Positions 7,571-25,887 of a stretch of 64,000 nt of DNA are shown one piece after another. The position numbers and the translations under genes are program-made. Within the stretch, counting starts at the first letter, position 1. Every line of letters starts with the position of its first letter. Source of the stretch: Paucibacter sp. KCTC 42545 (lineage in GTDB: Bacteria; Pseudomonadota; Gammaproteobacteria; Burkholderiales; Burkholderiaceae_C); the NCBI RefSeq assembly GCF_001477625.1, contig NZ_CP013692.1, positions 4,650,001 through 4,714,000 on the forward strand. The letters are read 5' to 3'. Under the pieces are notes generated by a model, which saw only the letters and a list, made by a program, of their open reading frames with translations, was not told the origin of the DNA and did no database searches.

Positions 7571-9085
7571 ATGCCCACCCCCTACACCAGTACCGCTGAC
7601 CTGACCCACTTCATTGGCGGCCAAGCCCAAGCCGCCAACTCCGGCCGCAGCCAGGCCGTGTTCAACCCGACCACGGGCGCCGTGGCGCGCCAGGTTCAGC
7701 TGGCCAGCATGGATGATGTCAACGCGGCGGTGGCCGGCGCGCTGGCCGCCTTCCCGGCCTGGGCTGATGCGCCCCCGCTGCGCCGCGCCCGCGTGATGTT
7801 CAAGTTCCTGGAACTGCTGAACCAGAACAAAGAAGTGCTGGCCGCCATAATCACGGCCGAGCATGGCAAGGTCTTCACCGACGCGCTGGGCGAAGTGGCG
7901 CGCGGCATCGACATCGTCGAGTTCGCCTGCGGCGCGCCGCAGCTGCTTAAGGGTGATTTCACCGACCAAGTCTCCACCGGCATGGACAACTGGACCCTGC
8001 GCCAGCCCCTGGGCGTGGTGGCCGGCGTGACGCCTTTCAATTTCCCTTTCATGGTGCCGATGTGGATGGCGCCCATGGCCATCGTCACCGGCAATTGCTT
8101 CATCTTGAAGCCCAGCGAGCGCGACCCTTCGCCCAGCTTGTTCGTGGCTGAATTGTTCAAGCAAGCTGGCCTGCCGGATGGCGTGTTCAGCGTCGTGCAG
8201 GGCGACAAGCTGGCGGTGGACGGGCTTTTGAATCACCCCGATGTGAAGGCGCTGAGCTTTGTGGGTTCAACCCCCATCGCCCAATACATCTACGAGACCG
8301 GCGCCAAGAACGGCAAGCGCGTGCAAGCCCTGGGCGGCGCCAAGAACCATATGGTGGTGATGCCTGACGCCGACATCGAGCAAACCGTGGACGCCCTGAT
8401 CGGCGCGGCCTACGGCTCGGCGGGTGAGCGCTGCATGGCCATCTCCGTGGCGGTGCTGGTGGGCGATGTGGCCGACAAGATCGTGCCCAAGCTGGCCGAG
8501 CGTGCCCGTGCATTGAAGATCAAGAACGGCATGGAACTCGACGCCGAGATGGGCCCCATCGTCACCCGCGAGGCGCGTGATCGCATCGAGGGCTATATCG
8601 GCACCGGCGTTGAAGAAGGCGCGCAGTTGTTGGTCGATGGCCGCGGCCACAAGGTGGCGGGTTTTGAAGACGGCTTCTTCACCGGCGGCACCTTGTTCGA
8701 CCATGTCACGCCGGAAATGCGCATCTACAAGGAAGAGATCTTCGGCCCGGTGCTGGCTTGCGTGCGGGTGGCTGACTTTGCGCAGGCGGTGGACCTGGTC
8801 AACGCCCATGAGTTCGGCAACGGCGTGGCTTGCTACACCAGCGACGGCAATGTCGCGCGTGAATTCGCGCGCCGCATCCAAGTCGGCATGGTGGGCATCA
8901 ATGTGCCGATTCCTGTGCCCATGGCCTGGCATGGTTTCGGTGGCTGGAAGAAGAGCCTGTTCGGCGATATGCATGCCTACGGCGAAGAAGGCGTGCGCTT
9001 CTACACCAAGCAAAAGAGCGTGATGCAGCGCTGGCCCGCCAGCGTGGCCAAGGGTGCTGAGTTTGTGATGCCGCAAAGCCGCTGA
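7571..9085 (+). CDS. mmsA: CoA-acylating methylmalonate-semialdehyde dehydrogenase
   Basis: The 504-residue enzyme is an aldehyde dehydrogenase of the MmsA type. It converts methylmalonate semialdehyde (or malonate semialdehyde) plus CoA and NAD to propionyl-CoA (acetyl-CoA), releasing CO2, in valine, inositol or beta-alanine breakdown. [19 protein letters not shown] is the MmsA nucleotide-site signature. [14 protein letters not shown] replaces the general-base Glu of hydrolytic dehydrogenases, the hallmark of CoA-acylating members. The nucleophilic Cys lies in GERCMA near residue 288. AAGGAG lies seven bases before the ATG. mmsB and other valine genes are not adjacent. Control by the divergent LysR protein is likely. 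Confidence 0.93.
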
Positions 9086-9091
9086 ACGCTT

Positions 9092-9132
9092 GCCGAGCGC
9101 AGCGGGCAGGACGCCGCTGCGCTTTGTTCGGC
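9092..9132 (+). terminator. Stem-loop after mmsA
   Basis: GCGCAGCGG and CCGCTGCGC form a perfect 9-bp stem, extended outward by GCCGA/TCGGC. It begins shortly after the mmsA stop. The T content after it is poor, so termination strength is uncertain. Confidence 0.45.
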
Positions 9133-9235
9133 AGCTGCGCCTTGTCGCAGCCCTGCGCTGAAGGCTGCAAGGTTCGCGTCAGCCTTTGGGAATTCTTAGG
9201 CTACGCTACGAGCTTCGCCAAGCTTGTCAGCCATC

Positions 9236-15371: not shown

Positions 15372-16238
15372 ATGTTCGACCACAACGAAACCCTCACCGA
15401 AGCCCGCGCCCGCAATATCCGCGAAGCGCTGCAGGAAGACATCGGCGTGTGTGACTGGACCGCGCAGCTTGTGCCGGCCGGGCGCCGCGTCAAAGCGCAT
15501 GTGCGGGTACGCGAAGCCGCCGTGCTGTGCGGGCGTGACTGGTTTGAGGGCGTGTTCGCCGCGCTCGACCCCAGCGCCCGCATCGAGTGGCTGTATGCCG
15601 AAGGCGCCGAGATGGTGGCCGACACCCTGGTCTGCCGCATCGAGGCCGATGGCCGCGCCCTGCTTTCGGCCGAACGCCCGGCGCTGAACTTTTTGCAATT
15701 GCTCTCGGCCACTGCTTCGCTCACCCATGCGCATGTGAAGGCCATCGAGGGCGCCAGCAGCAACCCGCGCGGCTGCGCCGTGCTGGACACCCGCAAAACC
15801 ATTCCCGGCCTGCGCCTGGCGCAGAAGTACGCCGTGCGGGTGGGCGGCGGCGCCAACCAGCGGCTGGCGCTGTACGCCGGCATCTTGATCAAGGAAAACC
15901 ATATCGCCGCAGCCGGCGGCGTGGCTGCAGCGCTGCATGCGGCGCAGGCCTTGCAGTCTGGCGTTGATATTCAGGTCGAAGTGGAAAGCATCGCCCAGTT
16001 GCAAGAGGCCCTGGGCGCCGGCGCGGTGAGCGTGCTGCTGGACAACTTCAGCGAGGCCATGATGCGCGAAGCGGTGGCGCTGAATGCCGGCCGCGCCTTG
16101 CTGGAGGTGTCGGGTGGCGTGGCGCTGGAGCAGCTGCGCTGGATCGCCGCCACTGGTGTGGACCGCATCTCCATCGGCCGCCTGACCAAGGATGTGCGGG
16201 CGGTGGATTACTCGATGCGGGTGGATGGCCCCGTCTGA
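15372..16238 (+). CDS. nadC: Nicotinate-nucleotide pyrophosphorylase (quinolinate phosphoribosyltransferase)
   Basis: The 288-residue cytosolic enzyme condenses quinolinate with PRPP to nicotinate mononucleotide, CO2 and pyrophosphate in de novo NAD synthesis. Landmarks in order: EALQEDIGVCDWTAQLVP, ERPALNFLQLLSATAS, the catalytic VLDTRKTIPGLRLAQKYAV, GGGANQRLALYAGILIKENHI, and VSGGVALEQLRWIAATGVD with SIGRLTK at the end. Length is normal. nadA and nadB are not adjacent. A G+C-rich hairpin follows the stop. Confidence 0.95.
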   Translation: MFDHNETLTEARARNIREALQEDIGVCDWTAQLVPAGRRVKAHVRVREAAVLCGRDWFEGVFAALDPSARIEWLYAEGAEMVADTLVCRIEADGRALLSAERPALNFLQLLSATASLTHAHVKAIEGASSNPRGCAVLDTRKTIPGLRLAQKYAVRVGGGANQRLALYAGILIKENHIAAAGGVAAALHAAQALQSGVDIQVEVESIAQLQEALGAGAVSVLLDNFSEAMMREAVALNAGRALLEVSGGVALEQLRWIAATGVDRISIGRLTKDVRAVDYSMRVDGPV

Positions 16239-16249
16239 GACGATGCCTT

Positions 16250-16269
16250 GGCGGCCTTGCTTGGCCGCC
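16250..16269. terminator. Bidirectional hairpin between nadC and the Anbu gene
   Basis: GGCGGCC-TTGCTT-GGCCGCC is a perfect 7-bp stem between two convergent genes. Short C/T-rich flanks on both sides suggest it can end transcripts from either direction, though no long T run is present. Confidence 0.5.
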
Positions 16270-16274
16270 CTTGA

Positions 16275-17009
16275 TTACTTGCTGAACCAGTCCTCATCCG
16301 GCAGGGCGGCAAACGCCTTCTTCAGCCCCTCGCCCCAGCTATTGCGCAGCATATTGAAATAGGGGTCGTTGGCGGTGATGCGGTGCGGTTCGGCGGGGGC
16401 GAAACTGTCGCTCAGGTAGAGCAGCATGTCGATGGGCAGGCCGACCGAGAGGTTGCTGCGAATGGTCGAGTCAAACGACACCAGCGTGCATTTGGCCGCT
16501 TCCTTCAGCGAGGTGCTGGGGTTGATGACGCGGTCGATGATGGGCTTGCCGTACTTGGATTCGCCGATCTGGAAGTAGGGCGTGTCATCGGTCGCTTCGA
16601 TGAAATTGCCCTGCGCGTAGACGTGGAAGATGCGCGGTTCTTCGCCCTTGATCTGGCCGCCGACGATGAAGTTGCCGCCGAAGTCCACGCCCTGGCCCAG
16701 GCTTTGCGCATTGGCATCGCGGGCGACGATTTCCTTCACCGTCTTGCCCACCAACTCGGCCACGTCGTACATGCTGCGGCGGTTGTTGAGGTGGTCTTTG
16801 TGGTCCAGCAAGCGCTGGCGCAGCAGGGTCACCACGCTTTGGGTGGTGGCCAGATTGCCGGCGCTCAGCAAGGTGATCAGGCGCTCACCCGGCACCTCGA
16901 AGATGCTCATCTTGCGGAAGGTGGCGATCTGATCCACCCCGGCGTTGGTGCGGGAATCGGAGGCGAACAGCAGGCCCGCGTTGAGGCGCATGGCGACGCA
17001 ATAAGTCAT
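16275..17009 (-). CDS. Anbu: proteasome-type peptidase (beta-proteobacterial proteasome homologue)
   Basis: The 244-residue protein is an N-terminal-nucleophile hydrolase of the Anbu/BPH family. It starts MTYCVAMRLNAGLLFASDSRTNAG; after Met removal Thr2 would be the nucleophile, and the SDSRTNAG turn and a following basic residue match proteasome beta subunits. The GNLATTQSVV and GGNFIVGGQ segments are also typical. Anbu forms large open-ring or helical assemblies, and its substrate is unknown. It is the last gene of a same-strand cluster with ATP-grasp, alpha-E and transglutaminase-like proteins, an association described by comparative genomics. It probably processes the product of those ligases. 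Confidence 0.92.
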   Translation of the reverse strand: MTYCVAMRLNAGLLFASDSRTNAGVDQIATFRKMSIFEVPGERLITLLSAGNLATTQSVVTLLRQRLLDHKDHLNNRRSMYDVAELVGKTVKEIVARDANAQSLGQGVDFGGNFIVGGQIKGEEPRIFHVYAQGNFIEATDDTPYFQIGESKYGKPIIDRVINPSTSLKEAAKCTLVSFDSTIRSNLSVGLPIDMLLYLSDSFAPAEPHRITANDPYFNMLRNSWGEGLKKAFAALPDEDWFSK

Positions 17010-17061
17010 GGTGGCGGTGGGCTGGTGAAGGCTAGATAGAGGGGCAATTATCCCAGGCCGC

Positions 17062-17889
17062 TCAGGCTTGGGTCTGGGCGCTGGCCAGCGTCACTTGCAC
17101 CGCGGCCTGCATCGCTTCGATGCCGCCGCCTAAGCGCATGCCGCGCACGGGGCAGGCGTCCAGATAGTCCAGGCCGATGGCCAGGCGCACATAACGCGCA
17201 TCCGCCAGGCATTGGTTCGACACATCAAAACCCAGCCAGCCGCCACCTTGCTCGGCCGTGCCGGGTAGGCGGGCCTCGGCCCAGGCGTGGCTGGCCACAT
17301 GCTCGGCATCGGTGGCCAGATAGCCGCTGACGTAACGCGTTGGCACACCGAGCAGGCGCGCGCAGGTGGCAAACACTTGGGCGTGATCCTGGCAGACGCC
17401 CAGCCGGCGCTCAAAGGCTTCGGCCGCTGGTGTGGCGGCGTCCGTCGTGCCGGGCGTGTAGGGCATGTGTTGGGCCAGGGCATGCATCAGGCCCAGCAGG
17501 CCTTGCAGGGGCTGGGCCGCCACGGCCTCGGCATGGCTGGCGGCAAAGGCGCGCAGCGCGGCATCGGCCTGGGTCAGGGGCGAGTCGCGCAGGAACACGG
17601 CCGGGGGGAAGCGCCCGTCCTGCGGGTCCGGGGCGGGCGGGGCGTCCAGCGTTTCCACCACGCCGCGGGCGAAGAGGTGGATCTCGCTGTGCGGCTGGTC
17701 CATGCTCAGCACATGCATCACATTGCCGTAGGCGTCCAGGCAGCGGCTGGCCTGGGCGGGCAAGTCCAGGGCCCAGCTCAGCACTTTTTGGTGGGGGGTG
17801 TCCACCGGCGTCAGGCGCAGGTATTGGGTGCTGCGCTTGACGGGGCTGGCGTAGCGGTAAACCGTTTCGTGGTGGATGGCGAGGTGCAC
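17062..17889 (-). CDS. Transglutaminase-like cysteine peptidase family protein
   Basis: The 275-residue protein has an N-terminal beta-rich domain (MHLAIHHETVYRYASPV), then the transglutaminase core. The catalytic triad is visible: Cys in RLGVCQDHAQVFA (about residue 166), His in VASHAWAEARL, Asp in GWLGFDVSN. Bacterial members act as peptidases or amide-forming enzymes. No ATG exists in the right place; the GTG at 17889, 32 bases after the alpha-E gene stop, gives the family's usual start and was chosen over a longer reading through that gene. It lies between the alpha-E and Anbu genes of the same cluster. Confidence 0.9.
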   Translation of the reverse strand: MHLAIHHETVYRYASPVKRSTQYLRLTPVDTPHQKVLSWALDLPAQASRCLDAYGNVMHVLSMDQPHSEIHLFARGVVETLDAPPAPDPQDGRFPPAVFLRDSPLTQADAALRAFAASHAEAVAAQPLQGLLGLMHALAQHMPYTPGTTDAATPAAEAFERRLGVCQDHAQVFATCARLLGVPTRYVSGYLATDAEHVASHAWAEARLPGTAEQGGGWLGFDVSNQCLADARYVRLAIGLDYLDACPVRGMRLGGGIEAMQAAVQVTLASAQTQA

Positions 17890-17920
17890 GGCAAGACCCA
17901 GGTCGTCGTTCAGAGGCCGC

Positions 17921-18889
17921 TCAATTGGCCTCGAAATAGGCTTCGCGTACCGCGTCGCCCAGCTGTGCTGACTTGGCCAGGAAGGTGGTGAGCCAATGGT
18001 GCACACCCAGCTCCAGCACTTCGTCCACCGTACCATGTTCCAGGCGTAAAGCCATGCGCCCTGCCATTTGCTTGACGATGCGGCCAGCGTCCCGCGAGCC
18101 GCTGCGGGCCTCGATATGCGGCAGCACATCGCGGATTTCGTCGCAGCAAGCGCGCAGCGAGCGCGGCACATCGGGGCGCAGGATCAGCAGCTCGGCCACC
18201 CGGCGCGCGTCCAGCCGGTCGCTGTAAACCGCGTGGTAAGCCTCGAAGGCGGAGAGCGAGCGCAGCAGCGCGCTCCAGGTGTAGAAGTCCTGCGCGCTTT
18301 CCGCCGCCACCTTCACCGGCGCCAGATTGGCCTGGGCCGGTTCGATCAGCTGCGACTTCACATCCAGCAGGCGGGCGGTGTTGTCGGCACGTTCGATGAA
18401 GGTGCCCAGGCGGATGAAGTAGTAGGCATCGTTGCGCTGCAAAGTGCCCTGTGTGGCGCCGCGGATCAGGTGCGAGCGCTCCTTCACCCAGTCGAAAAAG
18501 GTCGACACATTGGGCACGCCGCGCTTGGGCAGCTCGCGCCCGTCCAGCCAGGTGGCGTTGATGGCCTCCCACATCTCGGCGGTGATCTGGCCGCGCACTG
18601 CGTGGGCGTTCTCACGCGCCTGGCGCAGGCAGCTCAGCACCGAGGCCGGGTTGTTGAGGTCCAGCGCCATGAAGTGAAACAGCTGATCGGCTTGCAGGGC
18701 CTGATTGCTTTTGGTGAAGGCTTCCAGCGTGCCTGTCACGGCCAGAGGTGCTGCCAACTCGGTCATGGCGCCACGCGACTGCGGCAGCAGCGAGAGGGAA
18801 TAGGTCACGTCCAGCATGCGCACGAGGTTCTCGGCGCGCTCCACGTAGCGGCTCATCCAGTAAAGCTGGGCGGCGGTTCTAGAAAGCAT
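17921..18889 (-). CDS. Alpha-E domain protein
   Basis: The 322-residue all-helical protein opens with the alpha-E signature MLSRTAAQLYWMSRYVERAENLVRML and carries the repeated charged motif in LGTFIERADNTARLLDVK. The family was named for conserved glutamates in helices and is nearly always encoded beside circularly permuted ATP-grasp and transglutaminase-like genes. It has no assigned activity and may carry or position the growing peptide. GGAGG lies ideally before the ATG at 18889. The transglutaminase-like gene follows within 32 bases. Confidence 0.93.
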   Translation of the reverse strand: MLSRTAAQLYWMSRYVERAENLVRMLDVTYSLSLLPQSRGAMTELAAPLAVTGTLEAFTKSNQALQADQLFHFMALDLNNPASVLSCLRQARENAHAVRGQITAEMWEAINATWLDGRELPKRGVPNVSTFFDWVKERSHLIRGATQGTLQRNDAYYFIRLGTFIERADNTARLLDVKSQLIEPAQANLAPVKVAAESAQDFYTWSALLRSLSAFEAYHAVYSDRLDARRVAELLILRPDVPRSLRACCDEIRDVLPHIEARSGSRDAGRIVKQMAGRMALRLEHGTVDEVLELGVHHWLTTFLAKSAQLGDAVREAYFEAN

Positions 18890-19102
18890 GTCAATCCTCC
18901 ATTCGGTAAACGGCGCTCGGCTTGCACACAAGCAGCCAAGCCCGGTGGAGCGCGGGGATCCGGCTTTGCCGGGCCATCGCGCTGGCCCCTTTGAGGGGCT
19001 GAGGCCGGACACAAACGGCAAGCCGTTTGTGCCTGCCGAAGTGCTGAGCCTCTGGCGAAGCGCGGCCTGCAAGGCTGCGCGCAGCGCTTCGGGGGTGGGT
19101 CA
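18890..19102. repeat. Intergenic cluster of hairpins inside the ATP-grasp/alpha-E operon
   Basis: This 213-base spacer has no convincing gene. It holds three perfect hairpins: CCGGC-TTT-GCCGG (18960-18972), CCCC-TTTGA-GGGG (18986-18998) and CACAAACGGC-AA-GCCGTTTGTG (19010-19031). The composition resembles the dispersed palindromic elements common between Burkholderiales genes. It may set different mRNA levels for the upstream ATP-grasp gene and the downstream three genes. Repeat status needs a genome-wide search. Confidence 0.5.
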
Positions 19103-20530
19103 TTACGCCTCCAGAATCCAAGTGTCTTTGGTGCCGCCGCCTTGGCTGCTGTTCACCACCAGCGAGCCTTGCTTGAGCGCTACCCGTGTCAGGCCGCCGG
19201 CCACCATGGTGACCTCTTTGCCGGTCAGCACAAAAGGCCGCAGGTCAATATGGCGCGGTGCGATGCCGGCCTCCACGAACGTGGGGCAGCTGGACAGGCA
19301 CAGCGTCGGCTGGGCGATGTAATTGCTCGGGTTGGCGCTGACGCGGGCGCGGAAGTCTTCAATCTCGGCCTGGGTGGAGGCGGGCCCCACCAACATGCCG
19401 TAGCCGCCCGCGCCGTGTACCTCCTTGACCACCAGCTCGGCCATATTGGCCAGCACATGGTCCAGGTCGGCCGGCTTGCGGCATTGCCAGGTTGGCACGT
19501 TGTGCAGGATGGGTTCCTCGTTCAGGTAGAAGCGAATCATGTCCGGCACATAGGGGTAGATGGACTTGTCGTCCGCCACGCCGGTGCCGATGGCATTGGC
19601 CAGAATCACATGGCCCTGCTTGTAAACCGACAGCAGCCCCGGCACGCCCAGCATGGAGTCGGCGCGGAAGGCCAGCGGGTCGAGGAAAGCGTCGTCGATG
19701 CGGCGGTAGATCACATCTACCCGCTTCGGGCCGACCGTGGTGCGCATGTACAAGAACTCGTCCTTGACGAAGAGGTCTTGGCCTTCCACCAACTCCACCC
19801 CCATCTGCTGGGCCAGGAAGGCGTGCTCGAAGTAAGCGCTGTTGAAGGGGCCCGGCGTCAGCACCACGCAGGTTGGGTGTTCGGCCACGCTGGCGTGGCG
19901 CAAGGTGTTGAGCAGCAGGGTGGGGTAGTGCGCCACCGGCGCCACCGCGTAGCGGGCGAACAGCTCGGGGAAGAGCCGCATCATCATCTTGCGGTTTTCC
20001 AGCATATAGCTGACGCCCGAGGGCACGCGCAGATTGTCTTCCAGCACGTAATAGCCGCCGTCGGAATGGCGAATCAGATCGACCCCGGTGATGTGGGCGT
20101 AGATGCCCAGCGGCAAGTCCAGGCCCTGCATGGCCGGCTGGTACTGCGCATTGGCAAACACCTGCTCGGCCGGGATCAGGCCGGCCTTGATGATTTCATG
20201 GTCGTGATAAATGTCCCAGAGGAATTTGTTCAGGGCGCTGACGCGTTGGCGCAGGCCCGCTTCAAGCATCTGCCACTCCGAGGCGGGCACGATGCGCGGC
20301 ACCGTGTCGAAAGGAATCAGGCGCTCGGCGCCGGCCTCATCGCCATAGACCGCGAAGGTGATGCCCACGCGGTGGAAGAGCAAATCAGCCTCGGCGCGCT
20401 TGTGCGCCAGGGCGGCGGGCGTCTGGGCGTGCAGCCAATCGGCAAAAGCCTGGTAGTGCGGTCTGAGTGCACCGCTGGCCAACAGCATTTCATCGAAATG
20501 ACCCGGTGCGGGAAGAGTGAGCGCATGCAT
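19103..20530 (-). CDS. Circularly permuted ATP-grasp protein (type 2 family)
   Basis: The 475-residue protein belongs to the circularly permuted ATP-grasp family. Landmarks: LFHRVGITFAVYGDEAGAERLIPFD near the N-terminus, GVDLIRHSDGGYYVLEDNLRVPSGVSYMLENR in the middle, RVDVIYRRIDDAFLDP, then KEVHGAGGYGMLVGP and RHIDLRPFVL at the C-terminus. These supply nucleotide- and Mg-binding residues. ATP-grasp enzymes make amide bonds via acyl phosphates, so this is predicted to ligate amino acids to a peptide or protein. It leads the cluster ending in Anbu. The ATG at 20530 follows GGGAG at slightly long spacing; an upstream in-frame start is possible. Confidence 0.92.
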   Translation of the reverse strand: MHALTLPAPGHFDEMLLASGALRPHYQAFADWLHAQTPAALAHKRAEADLLFHRVGITFAVYGDEAGAERLIPFDTVPRIVPASEWQMLEAGLRQRVSALNKFLWDIYHDHEIIKAGLIPAEQVFANAQYQPAMQGLDLPLGIYAHITGVDLIRHSDGGYYVLEDNLRVPSGVSYMLENRKMMMRLFPELFARYAVAPVAHYPTLLLNTLRHASVAEHPTCVVLTPGPFNSAYFEHAFLAQQMGVELVEGQDLFVKDEFLYMRTTVGPKRVDVIYRRIDDAFLDPLAFRADSMLGVPGLLSVYKQGHVILANAIGTGVADDKSIYPYVPDMIRFYLNEEPILHNVPTWQCRKPADLDHVLANMAELVVKEVHGAGGYGMLVGPASTQAEIEDFRARVSANPSNYIAQPTLCLSSCPTFVEAGIAPRHIDLRPFVLTGKEVTMVAGGLTRVALKQGSLVVNSSQGGGTKDTWILEA

Positions 20531-21042
20531 GAGTGAAAAGACTCCCGGTGGGCGTGAACCAGATTGATGCATCCAGCAATGCAAGGCCTGTGCCTGAGCC
20601 ACGGCCCAAGCCGGTGCGCCAGCAAGGCCTGAGCTTGAACGATCTTGGTGCGCTTTGTGTACGGACTTGAACCTAGCCCGGGTCCATGCACTGCGCTGGG
20701 GCGGCAAGCGAGGTCGCAGTCTTGGTGGCGACGGCCGCATATGTCATCACGATGACATCTCGGCTTCAGAAAATTAGGGATTGACGCCTTGTGCTTTTCT
20801 GAAAATTTCTGTCTTGCGTTTCGAATCCAAAGACTTAGCTCGCTCCGCCCAGAAGCCAGGCCTGGGCAATCGCACCGCGCCTTGGCGGCATCGCCAGGCC
20901 CGAACGAGCGCAATGCCCCCCGCCTTTCCACACGCCACCTCGCTTCGCCTGCTTGACGAGGCGAGCGCGAGTGCTGCTGGCTCAGGCCGACGCATTGCCT
21001 CCTCCCCAAAACACTGAATCCAAACACGTCGAGTCGACCCGC
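20531..21042. other. Divergent regulatory region between the ATP-grasp cluster and the chemoreceptor
   Basis: About 510 bases separate the divergent starts. I see no gene. It has a perfect palindrome at 20741-20758 and an A+T-rich stretch around 20765-20840 (AAAATTAGGGATTGAC, CTGAAAATTTCTG) that probably holds the promoters. I did not find a convincing sigma-28 motif for the chemoreceptor. Confidence 0.5.
20741..20758. promoter_or_regulatory. Palindromic operator candidate
   Basis: ATGTCATC-AC-GATGACAT is a perfect 8-bp-arm inverted repeat in the divergent region, next to the A+T-rich promoter-like stretch. It is a plausible dimeric regulator site. The regulator is unknown. Confidence 0.5.
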
Positions 21043-22947
21043 ATGACCCAACACCATCTGAGTCTGAAAACCCGCTTGATCCTGGTCGGGCTGATCGCCT
21101 TGCTGCTGAGCGTGGTGCCCAGCGCCTTGCTGATTGGCAAATACGCCAGCGAATCCGAGCAGGCTGCCCGTGAGGCCCAGGGTTTGCCGCCCAACGAGGC
21201 CTGGCAAGCGGCGCTGAAGACTTTGCAAATACACCGCCAACTCGGCGCCGAAGCCTTGTCGACCCGACCCGCCGCGCGTGAAGAGTTGCCTGCCGCGCAG
21301 CAGGCGGTGCGTGCGGCGTTGGCGGCCGTCTCGACCCGCCTCGCGGCCAATGAAGACGCGTCTGCTCGCAACCTGGCTGCGGTGAAAGCCGTGGCGAGCG
21401 AGTTCGATCTGCTCGCCGCCGATCTGCGCGATGGCAAGCTGGACTTGGCCAAGCTGCTGGCCGGCCAGCAGGCGCTGGCGGCGCAAGCCTTTCGGGCCAT
21501 GGGTGAGCTCAATCACGATGCGGGCCTGTCGCTGGAGGTGGACCCGGCTCTGTATCACGCCGTCATCGCCGGCTTGCAGATTTCGCCCCAGGTGGGCGAC
21601 GCGCTGTCCGAGCTCAGCAGCATGGCGCGCGCCGCCGCGGTGGATGAGATCGCCCAGCTGACCGCCGCCCTGACCCGCTACCGTGAGAACAACGAGGCCC
21701 TGCAGCAAGAGATGCGCCTGGCGATTCACGCCAGTGGCAGCGAGAGTCATTTGGCCCCGGCCCTCAGCGCGCTGCTGCCCCAGGCGCAACAGCAACGCAA
21801 GCTGGTGGACGATGCCTTGAAAGCGGCGAGCCTGGATGTGAACTACCCGCTGGAGCAGTTGGCCGCCAGCTTTTCCAATGCGGCCGCGCTGCAGTCGGAC
21901 CTGTCGGCCCAGGTGCTCAAAACTTTGGGCAGCGAGCTGACGCAGCGTCGAGAAAGCAGTGCCTTCAAGCGCAATGCCTTGCTGATCACGCTGGTCCTGC
22001 TGCTGTCCGTCATGGGCATGGTCATGTTGCGCGCCATGCGCCGCTTGCTGGCGCCGGTGGCGCAGATGATTGAAGTGGCCGAGCGCATTGCCGGTGGCGA
22101 CTTGAGCCAGCCGGTGCCGCAAGGCCGGCGTGATGAGATGGGCCGGGTGCTGGTCGCGCTGCAGCATATGCAAGCGCGGCTGCGCCAACTGGTGGAAGAG
22201 ATTCATGCCGGCGCCGGCAATATTCGCAGCGCGGCGCAGGAGATTGCGCTGGGCAATCAAGACTTGGCTTCACGCACCGAGCAGGCGGCAGCGCAGTTGC
22301 AGCAAACCTCGGCCAATGTGGACTTTTTGGATCAGGTGGTGCGTGACAGCACCCGCGCCGTCGGCGAAGCGGCCGGTCTGGCGCAACGCACCTCGGGCGT
22401 GGCGGGTGATGGCGGCCGGGTGGTTGAGCAGCTGGCCAGCACCATGGCCTCCATCCATGAGTCCTCGAATCGCATTGCCGACATCACCGGATTGATCGAT
22501 GGCCTGGCCTTTCAGACCAATATCCTGGCCCTGAATGCCGCGGTTGAAGCCGCCCGCGCCGGCGAACAAGGGCGCGGCTTTGCTGTGGTGGCGGCCGAGG
22601 TGCGTTCGCTGGCCGGGCGTAGCGCTGCAGCGGCACGCGAGATCAAGGTCTTGATTCAGCACTCGGTCGAGCGGGTGGAGAGTGGCGCCACCCTGGCCAC
22701 CGATGCCGGCGAGTCCATGCAAAGAATTCTGGCCCAGGTGAACCAGGTGAGCAGCGTGATTCAGGGCATGGACGGCCGGGCACGCAGCCAGGCTGAACAG
22801 ACCCATGACCTGGGCGATGCCGTGCGTGCCATCGACGCGATGACTCAGCAGAACGCCGCCTTGGTGGAGCAATCGGCCGCCTCGGCCCTGTCTTTGCGCG
22901 GCCAGGCCGAGAGCATGGATGCGGCGGTGCAGGCCTTCAGGCTCTGA
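21043..22947 (+). CDS. Methyl-accepting chemotaxis protein
   Basis: The 634-residue chemoreceptor has a first membrane helix at about 10-30 ([21 protein letters not shown]), a helical periplasmic domain of ~270 residues, and a second membrane helix at about 309-331. A HAMP domain follows ([26 protein letters not shown]). The signalling hairpin is near residues 490-525 ([20 protein letters not shown]). It relays ligand binding to CheA/CheW. No C-terminal CheR pentapeptide is present; the protein ends AVQAFRL. The ligand domain is all-helical and unfamiliar. The gene stands alone, divergent from the ATP-grasp cluster. Confidence 0.93.
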
Positions 22948-23161
22948 GCTGGCGCGAGCCTTCGGTCGGGCGGCGTGCCGATGCAGCGCAGTCCGCCGCC
23001 CGCAGTGCATATTGTGTGAAAGATGAGCCCGGGTGAGCCCAGTGGATTGCGCCGACGAAGAAGGTGAATGTCAGTGATGGCCGCCCCTCGGCCAAGGCGA
23101 TATGCTCGCCCGCATCGAACGCCGCGTTCGCAACTCGCAGCCCTCGGGCTCGACATTCACC

Positions 23162-24910
23162 ATGCTCGCCATCCTTCGCATGCGCCTGGCTGCTGCCTCT
23201 GTTTTGTTCTGCCTGACTGCACTGGCGGCGGGCACTTTTATTGCGGCCCCTGTGGCCCATGCGGCGGCGCCACATAAGCAGCAACAGCAGTCGCAACAAC
23301 AAGCGGCGCCAGCCCCTGCCAGCGTCGACGCTGAGCCCGCTGATGCGCCGGGCTCGGCCGGGTCATTGCTGGCCCAGGGCGGCGCCTTGCCGGCCAGCGT
23401 GGGCGCGCCGGTGACGGTGCTGAATCGCCAGATCACCGCCTTTCGTGCCAGCTTCATGGGTACGCAGCCGGCCGATCGGGCGCGCCGGGCGCAGCTGGTC
23501 ATCAACGAGATGCTGTCGCGGGTGGGCCCGGGTGCGGTCACGGTGCGCAAAGAACTCCAGGGCCGGGTGTTGATGGTGGACGGCGAGATGGTCTTCTTCC
23601 TCACCGCCGACGATGTCAACCTGGACGAGCGCGAAACGCTGGAGCAGGCCGCCAGCCATGCCAAGCATCAACTGGAACAAGTCATCAACGAAACCCGTGA
23701 AAGCCGCGACGGCTCGCGCCTCTGGCATGGCGCGCTGGCCACCCTGGTGGCCACGGCGGTTTTTGTGGGCCTGGTGCTGCTGGTGCTGCGCGGGCGCAAT
23801 CTGGCCGGCACCAAACTGGCGGGCTTGATGACCACCAAGGACATGCGCCTGGAAATTGCAGGCACCCAGCTGCTGCAGCGCGACAAGCTGCTGGCCTTTT
23901 TGCGCCTGGCCTTGCGTCTGGCCAGCTGGGTGCTGCTGGCTTTGCTGTCCTACCAATGGCTCAGTTATGTGCTGAGCCAGTTCCCCTACACCCGGCCTTG
24001 GGGTGAGCAGCTCAGCGGCTACTTGCTGCACGTGGCGGGACGGATCGCCATGGGCATCTTGCATGCGCTGCCCGATCTGTTTGTGGCGCTGGTGATCTTT
24101 GCCATCGCACGCACGGCCATCAACATCATGAGCCCGGTGTTTGACCGCATCGAGCGCGGCGAAGTCAGCTTGGGCTGGCTGGACCGCGACACAGTGCGCG
24201 CCACGCGCCGCATCATCAGCTTCGCCGTTTGGATGTTCGCGCTGGTGATGGCCTATCCCTATCTGCCGGGCTCAGGCTCCGAGGCCTTCAAGGGCGTGTC
24301 GGTGCTTTTGGGTTTGATGATTTCCCTGGGCGCCTCCAGCATCGTGGGCCAGGGCGCCAGCGGCATGATTTTGATGTTCTCGCGCACCATCCGCGTCGGC
24401 GAGTTTGTGCGCATTGCCGACCACGAGGGCACGGTGGTGGAGCTGGGCATGTTTGCCACCCGCATCCGCACCGGCCTGGGCGAGGAGCTCAGCATGCCCA
24501 ACTCCCTGGTGCTGGGCACGGTAACCAAGAACTATTCGCGCGCGGTGAAGGGCCTGGGCTTCATCGTCGACACCACGGTGACGATTGGCTACGACACGCC
24601 TTGGCGCCAGGTCGAGGCCATGCTGGAAGAAGCCGCGCGGCGCACGCCCGGCGTTTTGGCCAGCCCGGCGCCGCAGGTGTTCCAGACGGCGCTGTCCGAC
24701 TTTTATCCCGAGTACCGCCTGGTCTGCCAGGCCGTGCCCAGCGAGCCGCGCCCACGCGCCTTGGTCTTGAGCAATTTACACGCCAATATTCAGGACGTGT
24801 TCAATGAGTACGGCGTGCAAATCATGTCGCCCCACTACTTGGCCGACCCCGAGCAAGCCAAGTTCGTGCCCAAGAGCGCCTGGTTCACCGCGCCGGCCAA
24901 GCCGGGCTGA
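23162..24910 (+). CDS. MscS-family mechanosensitive ion channel
   Basis: The 582-residue protein has a Sec signal peptide (RLAAASVLFCLTALAAG ... AHA), a Gln/Ala-rich linker, a periplasmic domain, and about five membrane segments. The pore helix and beta domain are clear: SLGASSIVGQGASGMILMFSRT, then IRVGEFVRIADHEGTVVELGMFATRIRT and the conserved MPNSLVLG. It would release solutes under hypo-osmotic stress, though many MscS relatives with large periplasmic domains have other roles. The frame opens at 23102; 23162 gives the best signal peptide (23180 is also possible). It appears monocistronic. Confidence 0.9.
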   Translation: MLAILRMRLAAASVLFCLTALAAGTFIAAPVAHAAAPHKQQQQSQQQAAPAPASVDAEPADAPGSAGSLLAQGGALPASVGAPVTVLNRQITAFRASFMGTQPADRARRAQLVINEMLSRVGPGAVTVRKELQGRVLMVDGEMVFFLTADDVNLDERETLEQAASHAKHQLEQVINETRESRDGSRLWHGALATLVATAVFVGLVLLVLRGRNLAGTKLAGLMTTKDMRLEIAGTQLLQRDKLLAFLRLALRLASWVLLALLSYQWLSYVLSQFPYTRPWGEQLSGYLLHVAGRIAMGILHALPDLFVALVIFAIARTAINIMSPVFDRIERGEVSLGWLDRDTVRATRRIISFAVWMFALVMAYPYLPGSGSEAFKGVSVLLGLMISLGASSIVGQGASGMILMFSRTIRVGEFVRIADHEGTVVELGMFATRIRTGLGEELSMPNSLVLGTVTKNYSRAVKGLGFIVDTTVTIGYDTPWRQVEAMLEEAARRTPGVLASPAPQVFQTALSDFYPEYRLVCQAVPSEPRPRALVLSNLHANIQDVFNEYGVQIMSPHYLADPEQAKFVPKSAWFTAPAKPG

Positions 24911-25083
24911 AATGCTTTGGGGCACCGCGCTGGCGGCGCCGTCCCCAAGATTGCACTTGGCCTGCGGCCCGCTTCGGTCAGATACTCAAGCGCCACGCTC
25001 AGCGGCGCCTCAACAGGCGCTGACGGTGTGGCCCGCGGGGTGCCGGCTGCGCCCTCCAATCAGTGGCTTGGGAGTGTCAGACC

Positions 25084-25887
25084 ATGTGCATTCAAGGACC
25101 GGTGGGGCGGGGCTCGCATAACGACATCATCGATGTGATGGTGGTGCAGAACCTTTTGAATATGAACCTGGGCCGCTATGCGGGTGTGCAGCCGCCTGCC
25201 CAGTTGCAGCCCGATGGGCGCATCGGCCTGAAGACCATCGATGCGATCCAGCAATTTGAGACCCGCATCATGGGCTTGCCCGAGTCCGACGGCATCATCG
25301 TGCCCGGCGATGCCACCCTCAAAGCGCTGATCGCGGGCCTGCCGCCCGGCTATGTCGAAGAAAAGCTGGCCATCGTGATGCCGCAGGCCACCGCCAGCCG
25401 CATTGATCTGTATTACCAGCCTCTCTTGACCGCCATGCCCAAATACGGCATCACCAGTGAGCTGCAAATCGCGCACTTTCTGGCCCAGCTGGCGCATGAG
25501 TCAGGCTCCTTTTTGTACCCGGAAGAGCTGGCCAGCGGCGAGGCCTACGAAGGCCGCAATGATCTAGGCAATAAGCAGCCGGGTGATGGCCGCCGCTTCA
25601 AAGGCCGCGGCCTGATCCAGCTCACCGGCCGCGCCAATTACACCCGCTACAGCCAGGCCAGCGGGCAGGACTTTCTGGCGCACCCCGAGCGCATCGCCAA
25701 TGAACCGCTGTTGGCGGTGGATGTGGCTTGCTGGTTCTGGGCCGATAAGCGCATCGGCGCCATGGCCGACCGTGATGATGTGAAGGCGGTCACCAAGGCC
25801 ATCAACGGCCAGGCTGATGGCCCCAACACGCACTTGAAAGCCCGGCTGGAGTTTTTGTTCCGCGCCAAGGCCTTGATCGGCATTTAA
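25084..25887 (+). CDS. GH19 chitinase/endolysin-like muralytic enzyme with peptidoglycan-binding-like N-terminus
   Basis: The 267-residue protein has an N-terminal helical module (about 8-85: DIIDVMVVQNLLN ... DGRIGLKTIDAIQQFE) resembling peptidoglycan-binding domains, then a GH19 catalytic domain. FLAQLAHESGSFLYPEELA carries the catalytic Glu, and GRGLIQLTGRANYTRY is the conserved GH19 core. No signal peptide is visible, as in phage endolysins and type VI secretion effectors. No holin, other phage gene or immunity candidate is adjacent. GGGAG precedes the ATG at 25084. A tRNA gene lies 120 bases downstream, a common integration site. Confidence 0.87.
   Translation: MCIQGPVGRGSHNDIIDVMVVQNLLNMNLGRYAGVQPPAQLQPDGRIGLKTIDAIQQFETRIMGLPESDGIIVPGDATLKALIAGLPPGYVEEKLAIVMPQATASRIDLYYQPLLTAMPKYGITSELQIAHFLAQLAHESGSFLYPEELASGEAYEGRNDLGNKQPGDGRRFKGRGLIQLTGRANYTRYSQASGQDFLAHPERIANEPLLAVDVACWFWADKRIGAMADRDDVKAVTKAINGQADGPNTHLKARLEFLFRAKALIGI

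Follow-up and report, generated by a model that had tools for sequence, protein, structure and literature searches.

Anbu, a proteasome-like protein named in 2008 (PMC5666114), is encoded in Yersinia bercovieri in one operon with an ATP-grasp protein, an alpha-E protein and a transglutaminase-like protein (TG) (PMC6376114). The operon, its gene order and a peptide-ligation hypothesis for its role have been published (PMC5666114, PMC6376114; these and all other papers are cited for the portions of their text that were available), and in 2021 the function of Anbu was still described as not known (PMC8665760). The stretch of DNA analyzed here, hereafter the window, comprises 64,000 nucleotides of Paucibacter sp. 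KCTC 42545 (contig NZ_CP013692.1, positions 4,650,001 to 4,714,000) and harbors the same four families in the same order, as four complete genes on the minus strand at 16275-20530. The cluster is the Anbu operon in its canonical order, as known from PMC6376114. An original prediction, made from the letters alone, had named it the strongest candidate for an undescribed biochemical system; this does not hold, since operon, order and ligation hypothesis are already in print. What is added here is the conservation of the promoter, the co-occurrence counts and the associated Peptidase_Mx.

The window differs from Anbu operons elsewhere by a spacer of 213 nt between the ATP-grasp and alpha-E genes, which exceeds that of all 80 relatives compared, and by holding the sole ATP-grasp/alpha-E copy of its genome. 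The P. putida homologues of the window genes, PP_2685-2688, are upregulated when nitrogen is limiting; PP_2687 is listed as hypothetical in the papers and is taken by us to be the alpha-E gene because of its position. The NtrC-dependent cluster I35_5080-5083 of B. cenocepacia likewise contains separate genes for DUF404/DUF407 (ATP-grasp), DUF403 (alpha-E) and a TG, but its fourth gene encodes a large TG-domain protein instead of Anbu (PMC5491218).

The best supported reading of these loci, to which we give somewhat less than an even chance, is that an ATP-driven amide-forming pair acts together with partly interchangeable amide hydrolases under nitrogen control. Gene content and order, the catalytic residues, the constant pairing of ATP-grasp with alpha-E, the presence of at least one predicted hydrolase and the conservation of the promoter are observations and are described below.

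The four proteins and their catalytic residues

The first gene (19103-20530, 475 amino acids) encodes a circularly permuted type 2 ATP-grasp protein, a predicted carboxylate-amine ligase. It covers the PF14403 profile in full (positions 1-374 of 374, E 6.8e-167), matches PF04174 and aligns nearly full-length (residues 13-476, E 1.1e-219) with PDB entry 3n6x, a putative glutathionylspermidine synthase whose name is a putative annotation. Its constant partner, the alpha-E protein (17921-18889, 322 amino acids), matches PF04168 with an E value of 8.3e-92 and a score of 308.5 bits versus a cut-off of 20.8, and shows the conserved ER motif of the family: Glu17, Arg18, Glu20, Glu166 and Arg167 are invariant in 14 sequences, and Arg14 is likewise counted among the invariant Glu and Arg residues of the alignment. 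A profile search of the PDB sequences with alpha-E yielded nothing beyond a designed helical bundle (E 0.028), and the structure predicted from the single sequence was unusable, with a mean predicted local distance difference test score (pLDDT) of 45.

The TG (17062-17889, 275 amino acids, with a GTG start picked by eye) matches PF08379 (E 4.7e-22) and PF01841 (E 1.9e-18) and contains a Cys-His-Asp triad, of which His and Asp are found in 70/70 and Cys in 67/70 aligned sequences. In the exceptions the Cys is located one position earlier (locus L030), replaced by Val (L027) or deleted (L059). The two loci L027 (TG at 8357-9160) and L059 (TG from 8345), both with an altered catalytic Cys, are also both without Anbu. 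The Anbu protein of the window (16275-17009, 244 amino acids), a proteasome-beta-like N-terminal nucleophile hydrolase, matches PF00227 and the PDB Anbu entries 5loy, 5nyw and 5lox (E 4.1e-99 to 1e-78), as well as 5nyj and 5nyf. An open dodecameric ring or lock-washer assembly is a hallmark of the family. Thr1, Asp17 and Lys32/33 (Thr2, Asp18 and Lys33 when Met is counted) are identical in 69/69 aligned sequences, the window copy included. Profile and PDB matches thus bear out a complete cluster of four same-strand genes as predicted, and the N-terminal Thr nucleophile and the Cys-His-Asp triad were correctly recognized. None of the four proteins matched a PADLOC model at E <= 0.01, and a role in anti-phage defense was rejected on this ground.

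Gene order, co-occurrence and associated predicted hydrolases

The distribution of the families was surveyed in 299 Pseudomonadota genomes (G numbers; G000 is the genome of the window), 293 of which had a completeness of 90% or more and a contamination of 5% or less, with each family counted at its own threshold. The 171 genomes with ATP-grasp are exactly those with alpha-E, and each of the two families is represented in 104 of 181 genera. The remaining families are present in 167 (TG, PF08379), 115 (Anbu), 91 (DUF2126) and 57 (Peptidase_Mx) genomes, and the pair is found along with Anbu in 113/115 (exceptions G094 and G248, of one genus), with TG in 164/167 (exceptions G115, G134 and G294), with Peptidase_Mx in 56/57 (exception G086) and with DUF2126 in 91/91. 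Within the 171 pair genomes 106 have both TG and Anbu, 58 TG only, seven Anbu only and none neither, where a few TG absences may be false because many genomes had unscored first-look candidates. Frequent presence of each gene without the others, named at the outset as an argument against a common system, is therefore found in one respect only: the pair often stands without Anbu, but ATP-grasp and alpha-E never occur apart, and Anbu or TG without the pair is rare (2/115 and 3/167).

The orphan Anbu genes (L083 6258-7001 in G248 and C88:6050-6775 in G094) belong to a genus without detected ATP-grasp, alpha-E or TG. Judged by eye, a gene beside them has a counterpart in L088; this locus comes from another genus of the family, one which keeps ATP-grasp, alpha-E and Anbu.

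Gene order, for which a comparison with relatives had been suggested, was followed in 80 related loci (L numbers; 81 with the window where upstream regions were scanned); Paucibacter and Roseateles are among the closest by ATP-grasp, where identity reaches 93%. All four genes are kept in the same order and strand in 64/80 loci, which argues against a chance arrangement. Three loci are cut by a contig end and 13 lack TG and/or Anbu locally (TG in five, Anbu in six, both in two). The alpha-E gene adjoins ATP-grasp in 80/80 loci and is partial where the contig ends. Flanking genes vary, the largest cluster of open reading frames outside the operon spanning 10/80 loci; conserved neighbors outside the operon were rejected, the larger clusters being the four genes themselves or antisense frames over them. 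Whole-genome searches for seven of the eight Anbu-less loci (L059 left out) gave no Anbu match, several of these genomes being drafts or metagenome-assembled genomes. At least one TG-family gene is present in each of 11 locus genomes examined, so that Herbaspirillum and the genome of L012, although they lack TG at the locus, have not lost it altogether. Anbu is kept though distant from ATP-grasp/alpha-E in G082 (1.7 Mb) and G218 (1.3 Mb), each with one contig and one alpha-E. A divergent Anbu (29-31% identity) lies 0.37 Mb from the ATP-grasp/alpha-E pair in G016 (L091, L092).

The expectation that ligases build a product which Anbu later processes stands insofar as the four genes belong together functionally and encode a predicted amide ligase along with predicted hydrolases. 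It fails for Anbu as a required last step, since 58/171 pair genomes, and likewise the genomes of the seven Anbu-less loci, have no Anbu match.

Proteins of 349-367 amino acids that belong to the family Peptidase_Mx (PF15887, E 4.5e-90 to 1.4e-102) and contain a zinc ribbon as well as an HExxH motif were found in G102, G234, G165 and G218. They adjoin ATP-grasp/alpha-E or Anbu in G102, G234 and G165, which have no TG match, and in G218, which has a TG-family match elsewhere in the genome. Coordinates, evaluated by eye, place Peptidase_Mx no more than 10 kb away from ATP-grasp, alpha-E, Anbu or DUF2126 in 16/56 genomes or more. It is present in 5/7 TG-less versus 51/164 TG-bearing pair genomes (p 0.04, a value which kinship makes too small), and DUF2126 in 44/56 pair genomes with Peptidase_Mx versus 47/115 without. 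If a zinc peptidase can take the position of TG, hydrolysis becomes a likelier activity of the latter than crosslinking; TG is read here as a putative amidohydrolase. A narrow literature search found no link of Peptidase_Mx to the Anbu operon; the name of the family occurs once in PMC2701414, and Iyer 2009 may mention it.

A related arrangement, termed type II, is represented by locus L094, which encodes a small TG, an ATP-grasp-alpha-E fusion (836 amino acids) and a large TG-DUF2126 protein (1123 amino acids). It shares the ATP-grasp, alpha-E and TG domains with the window but differs by the fusion, by the second predicted ligase DUF2126 and by the absence of Anbu from its three genes. According to precomputed domains, the fusion is found in the 120 homologues of the L094 fusion among the matches listed. 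Iyer 2009 reportedly describes a peptide-tagging system with a circularly permuted glutamine synthetase (GS)-like ligase, which we take to be DUF2126; the Paucibacter genome gave no DUF2126 match at E <= 1e-100 and no candidate. Upstream of the large TG of type II loci, sigma-54-like sites were found in 2/20 genomes versus 0.42 in shuffles and 1/20 on the reverse strand, and the NtrC palindrome (<=2 mismatches) in 3/20 versus 1.24; a promoter shared with type II loci thus found no clear support in these 20 regions. In G270 (C2:855387-865308), which has no Anbu match, a large TG-DUF2126 gene lies shortly past alpha-E and seems to occupy the position of Anbu, an arrangement resembling the B. cenocepacia cluster.

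Promoter, spacer and surroundings

About 300 bp before the ATP-grasp start (starts estimated from tblastn) were scanned for GG-N10-GC sites like TGGCACGNNNNTTGCW, using the general sigma-54 and NtrC consensus patterns. A sigma-54-like site with up to two mismatches is present in 47/81 loci, compared with 2.25 in dinucleotide shuffles and 7/81 on the reverse strand, and in 18 of the 34 non-redundant loci (<88% identity; shuffle mean 0.93, largest 5 in 100 sets). The NtrC palindrome TGCACYNNNNNRGTGCA, with up to two mismatches within 450 bp, is found in 50/81 loci versus 6.2 in windows drawn at random from these loci, and in 23/34 non-redundant loci (shuffle mean 3.15, largest 8 in 40 sets). In the window, the candidate sigma-54 -24/-12 site CAGGCACAGGCCTTGCA is located at 20580-20596 on the minus strand, about 50-66 nt upstream of the ATP-grasp start. 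When the upstream region of the window is aligned with those of the 13 closest relatives, invariant columns form runs only in the two halves of this site, GGCAC and TTGC, and stand singly elsewhere; a weak candidate NtrC half-site, GCACCAA (20645-20651, minus strand), was spotted by eye in the same alignment. Genes for ntrC and rpoN are found in the Paucibacter genome, and no sigma-70-type promoter was found in 16150-20950.

The loci of Herbaspirillum, Collimonas, Noviherbaspirillum and relatives, and Limnobacter give no good sigma-54 match; those of Limnobacter have NtrC-like palindromes with one or two mismatches. Complete or partial operons without a good upstream sigma-54 site are seen in L022, L031, L038, L056 and L061, from bacteria of Oxalobacteraceae type; the promoter of these operons may differ.

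Nitrogen-dependent expression has been reported for the homologous genes. In P. putida grown on nitrate versus ammonium, PP_2685 (proteasome beta-like) and PP_2688 (ATP-grasp) were up by log2 4.44 and 3.99, respectively (PMC8050072), and under nitrogen limitation PP2685, PP2686 (TG) and PP2687 rose 11.1-, 6.6- and 7.1-fold (PMC3325844). In three strains, PP_2686-2688 were induced 11- to 37-fold and PP_2685 1.1- to 4.8-fold, the genes being attributed to NtrB/NtrC (PMC7801951). In a B. cenocepacia ntrC mutant, DUF404/407, DUF403, TG and large TG changed by log2 -8.2, -9.4, -9.4 and -6.0 (PMC5491218). A survey of sigma-54 regulons includes COG3484, a proteasome-type protease (PMC12316311), and in marine metagenomes these domains correlate with urea-metabolism domains, which lends weak support (PMC3597751). 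The available text of three further papers on nitrogen starvation (PMC5748707, PMC10532344, PMC8443478) gave no match for the terms sought.

The hairpin-rich spacer (18890-19102, minus strand) had been proposed to separate the expression of ATP-grasp from that of the other three genes. This finds no backing in relatives: in the 80 loci the two genes are separated by a median of 5 nt (-4 to 204). The spacer folds with -106.6 kcal/mol (z -3.4; 1/200 shuffles as good), and two overlapping stretches of it, 57 and 45 nt long, have further copies with 86-87% identity at 1499017-1499073 and 3106518-3106562 of the same genome. It is lineage-specific, in part a dispersed repeat, and was probably inserted; a conserved regulatory RNA was rejected in view of the junction lengths, the folding and the dispersed copies, and an effect on expression in this species alone is possible. 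A split at this point is not matched in P. putida either, where Anbu, not ATP-grasp, is less induced (PMC7801951) or both are induced alike (PMC8050072).

The Paucibacter genome is a single 5.17-Mb contig and contains, at the thresholds used, one match each for ATP-grasp, alpha-E, TG-family (PF08379; 17 of 24 first-look candidates scored) and Anbu. Plus-strand genes for an FAA-hydrolase and a quinolinate phosphoribosyltransferase (nadC-like) lie before the cluster, and a methyl-accepting chemotaxis protein gene (20953-22947, plus strand) is the divergent neighbor past ATP-grasp. An MscS-type channel gene (23102-24910) and a gene for a protein with a class I chitinase (GH19) domain match (25063-25887) are found nearby on the plus strand.

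A proposed nitrogen-controlled amide cycle and its alternatives

In the reading put forward above, nitrogen starvation would switch the operon on through sigma-54 and NtrC, and ATP-grasp and alpha-E would jointly constitute an enzyme that uses ATP for amide bond formation, most likely on a small molecule or a short peptide; the product would be small and not a protein tag. TG and Anbu would open or trim the amide product in the cell, and Peptidase_Mx may replace TG in some other lineages. Such a make-and-break amide compound would let the cell bank or scavenge nitrogen. A small product is preferred because a third of the pair genomes lack Anbu and because TG and the metal peptidase are not compartmental proteases. 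More tentatively, at roughly one chance in three, ATP-grasp and alpha-E may each supply one half of a single amide synthetase, and three hydrolases unrelated to one another, the Cys-type TG, the Thr-type Anbu and the Zn-type Peptidase_Mx, may each be able to open its product, in a make-and-break amide cycle of nitrogen starvation.

Several observations weigh against this amide cycle. Transglutaminases can also form bonds, and Anbu is closest to the proteasome beta subunit. The exchange between TG and Peptidase_Mx is carried by few lineages: the lack of TG is not certain in G082 (17/19 candidates scored) and G171 (17/32), G031 and G230 have neither family, and Peptidase_Mx was not found in the Paucibacter genome. 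The count of zero pair genomes with neither TG nor Anbu is only suggestive, because about 2.4 are expected by independence according to our own arithmetic, and counts are preferred to p-values, which are too small since the genomes are related. Taken alone, the sigma-54-like site of the window, with two mismatches to the consensus, is not above chance (10 such sites in 64 kb versus 12.7 expected) and is supported because of its conservation and position; the best full NtrC palindrome (about 20687-20703, two mismatches) is likewise weak by itself, and many Oxalobacteraceae loci have no sigma-54 site. Furthermore, two groups found neither peptidase or amidase activity of Anbu nor a complex or modified form of it with other operon proteins (PMC5666114, PMC6376114), and a role of Anbu in protein degradation is favored over peptide synthesis in PMC5666114.

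Next in support comes protein tagging, which PMC6376114 and PMC5666114 attribute to Iyer 2009 and to Valas and Bourne 2008: the pair would add a peptide to proteins, TG would trim or crosslink, and Anbu would degrade or de-tag. The joining of predicted amide-forming proteins with a proteasome homologue in one operon (PMC6376114) is consistent with this, as are the proteasome-like nature of Anbu, its many active sites per assembly and the labeling of Thr1 by epoxomicin (PMC5666114). We nevertheless regard tagging as rather unlikely, with 58/171 pair genomes devoid of Anbu, the second predicted ligase DUF2126 missing from the Paucibacter genome, and neither interaction nor activity found in PMC6376114. 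Improbable, too, is a purely biosynthetic operon in which TG and Anbu are transferases and all four proteins build one amide product. Connectase, a proteasome-like member of the same family, is a ligase (PMC8665760), and Anbu shows no hydrolysis of standard substrates (PMC5666114, PMC6376114); against this, Anbu and TG are each dispensable across genomes, and a putative metal peptidase occurs within these loci in lineages without detected TG.

Slightly less probable still, Anbu and TG would be general starvation-turnover proteases, and ATP-grasp/alpha-E a separate pathway merely sharing their promoter. Nitrogen induction (PMC8050072) and the turnover proposed in PMC5666114 would suit such a role, but Anbu occurs without the pair in just 2/115 genomes and is kept with it where the genes are unlinked. 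A chance or hitchhiking neighborhood without common function can practically be dismissed: no point was found in its favor, the order is kept in 64/80 loci while the flanks change, and the families co-occur across genomes.

The counts point to testing ATP-grasp and alpha-E as one enzyme, with a nitrogen-limited, hydrolase-deficient strain as a trap for the product. No type II paralogue should obscure the effect of deletions in the Paucibacter genome, because the genes are present in single copies at the thresholds used. Under nitrogen shortage, the Anbu operon probably serves first to form an amide compound and then to cleave it.

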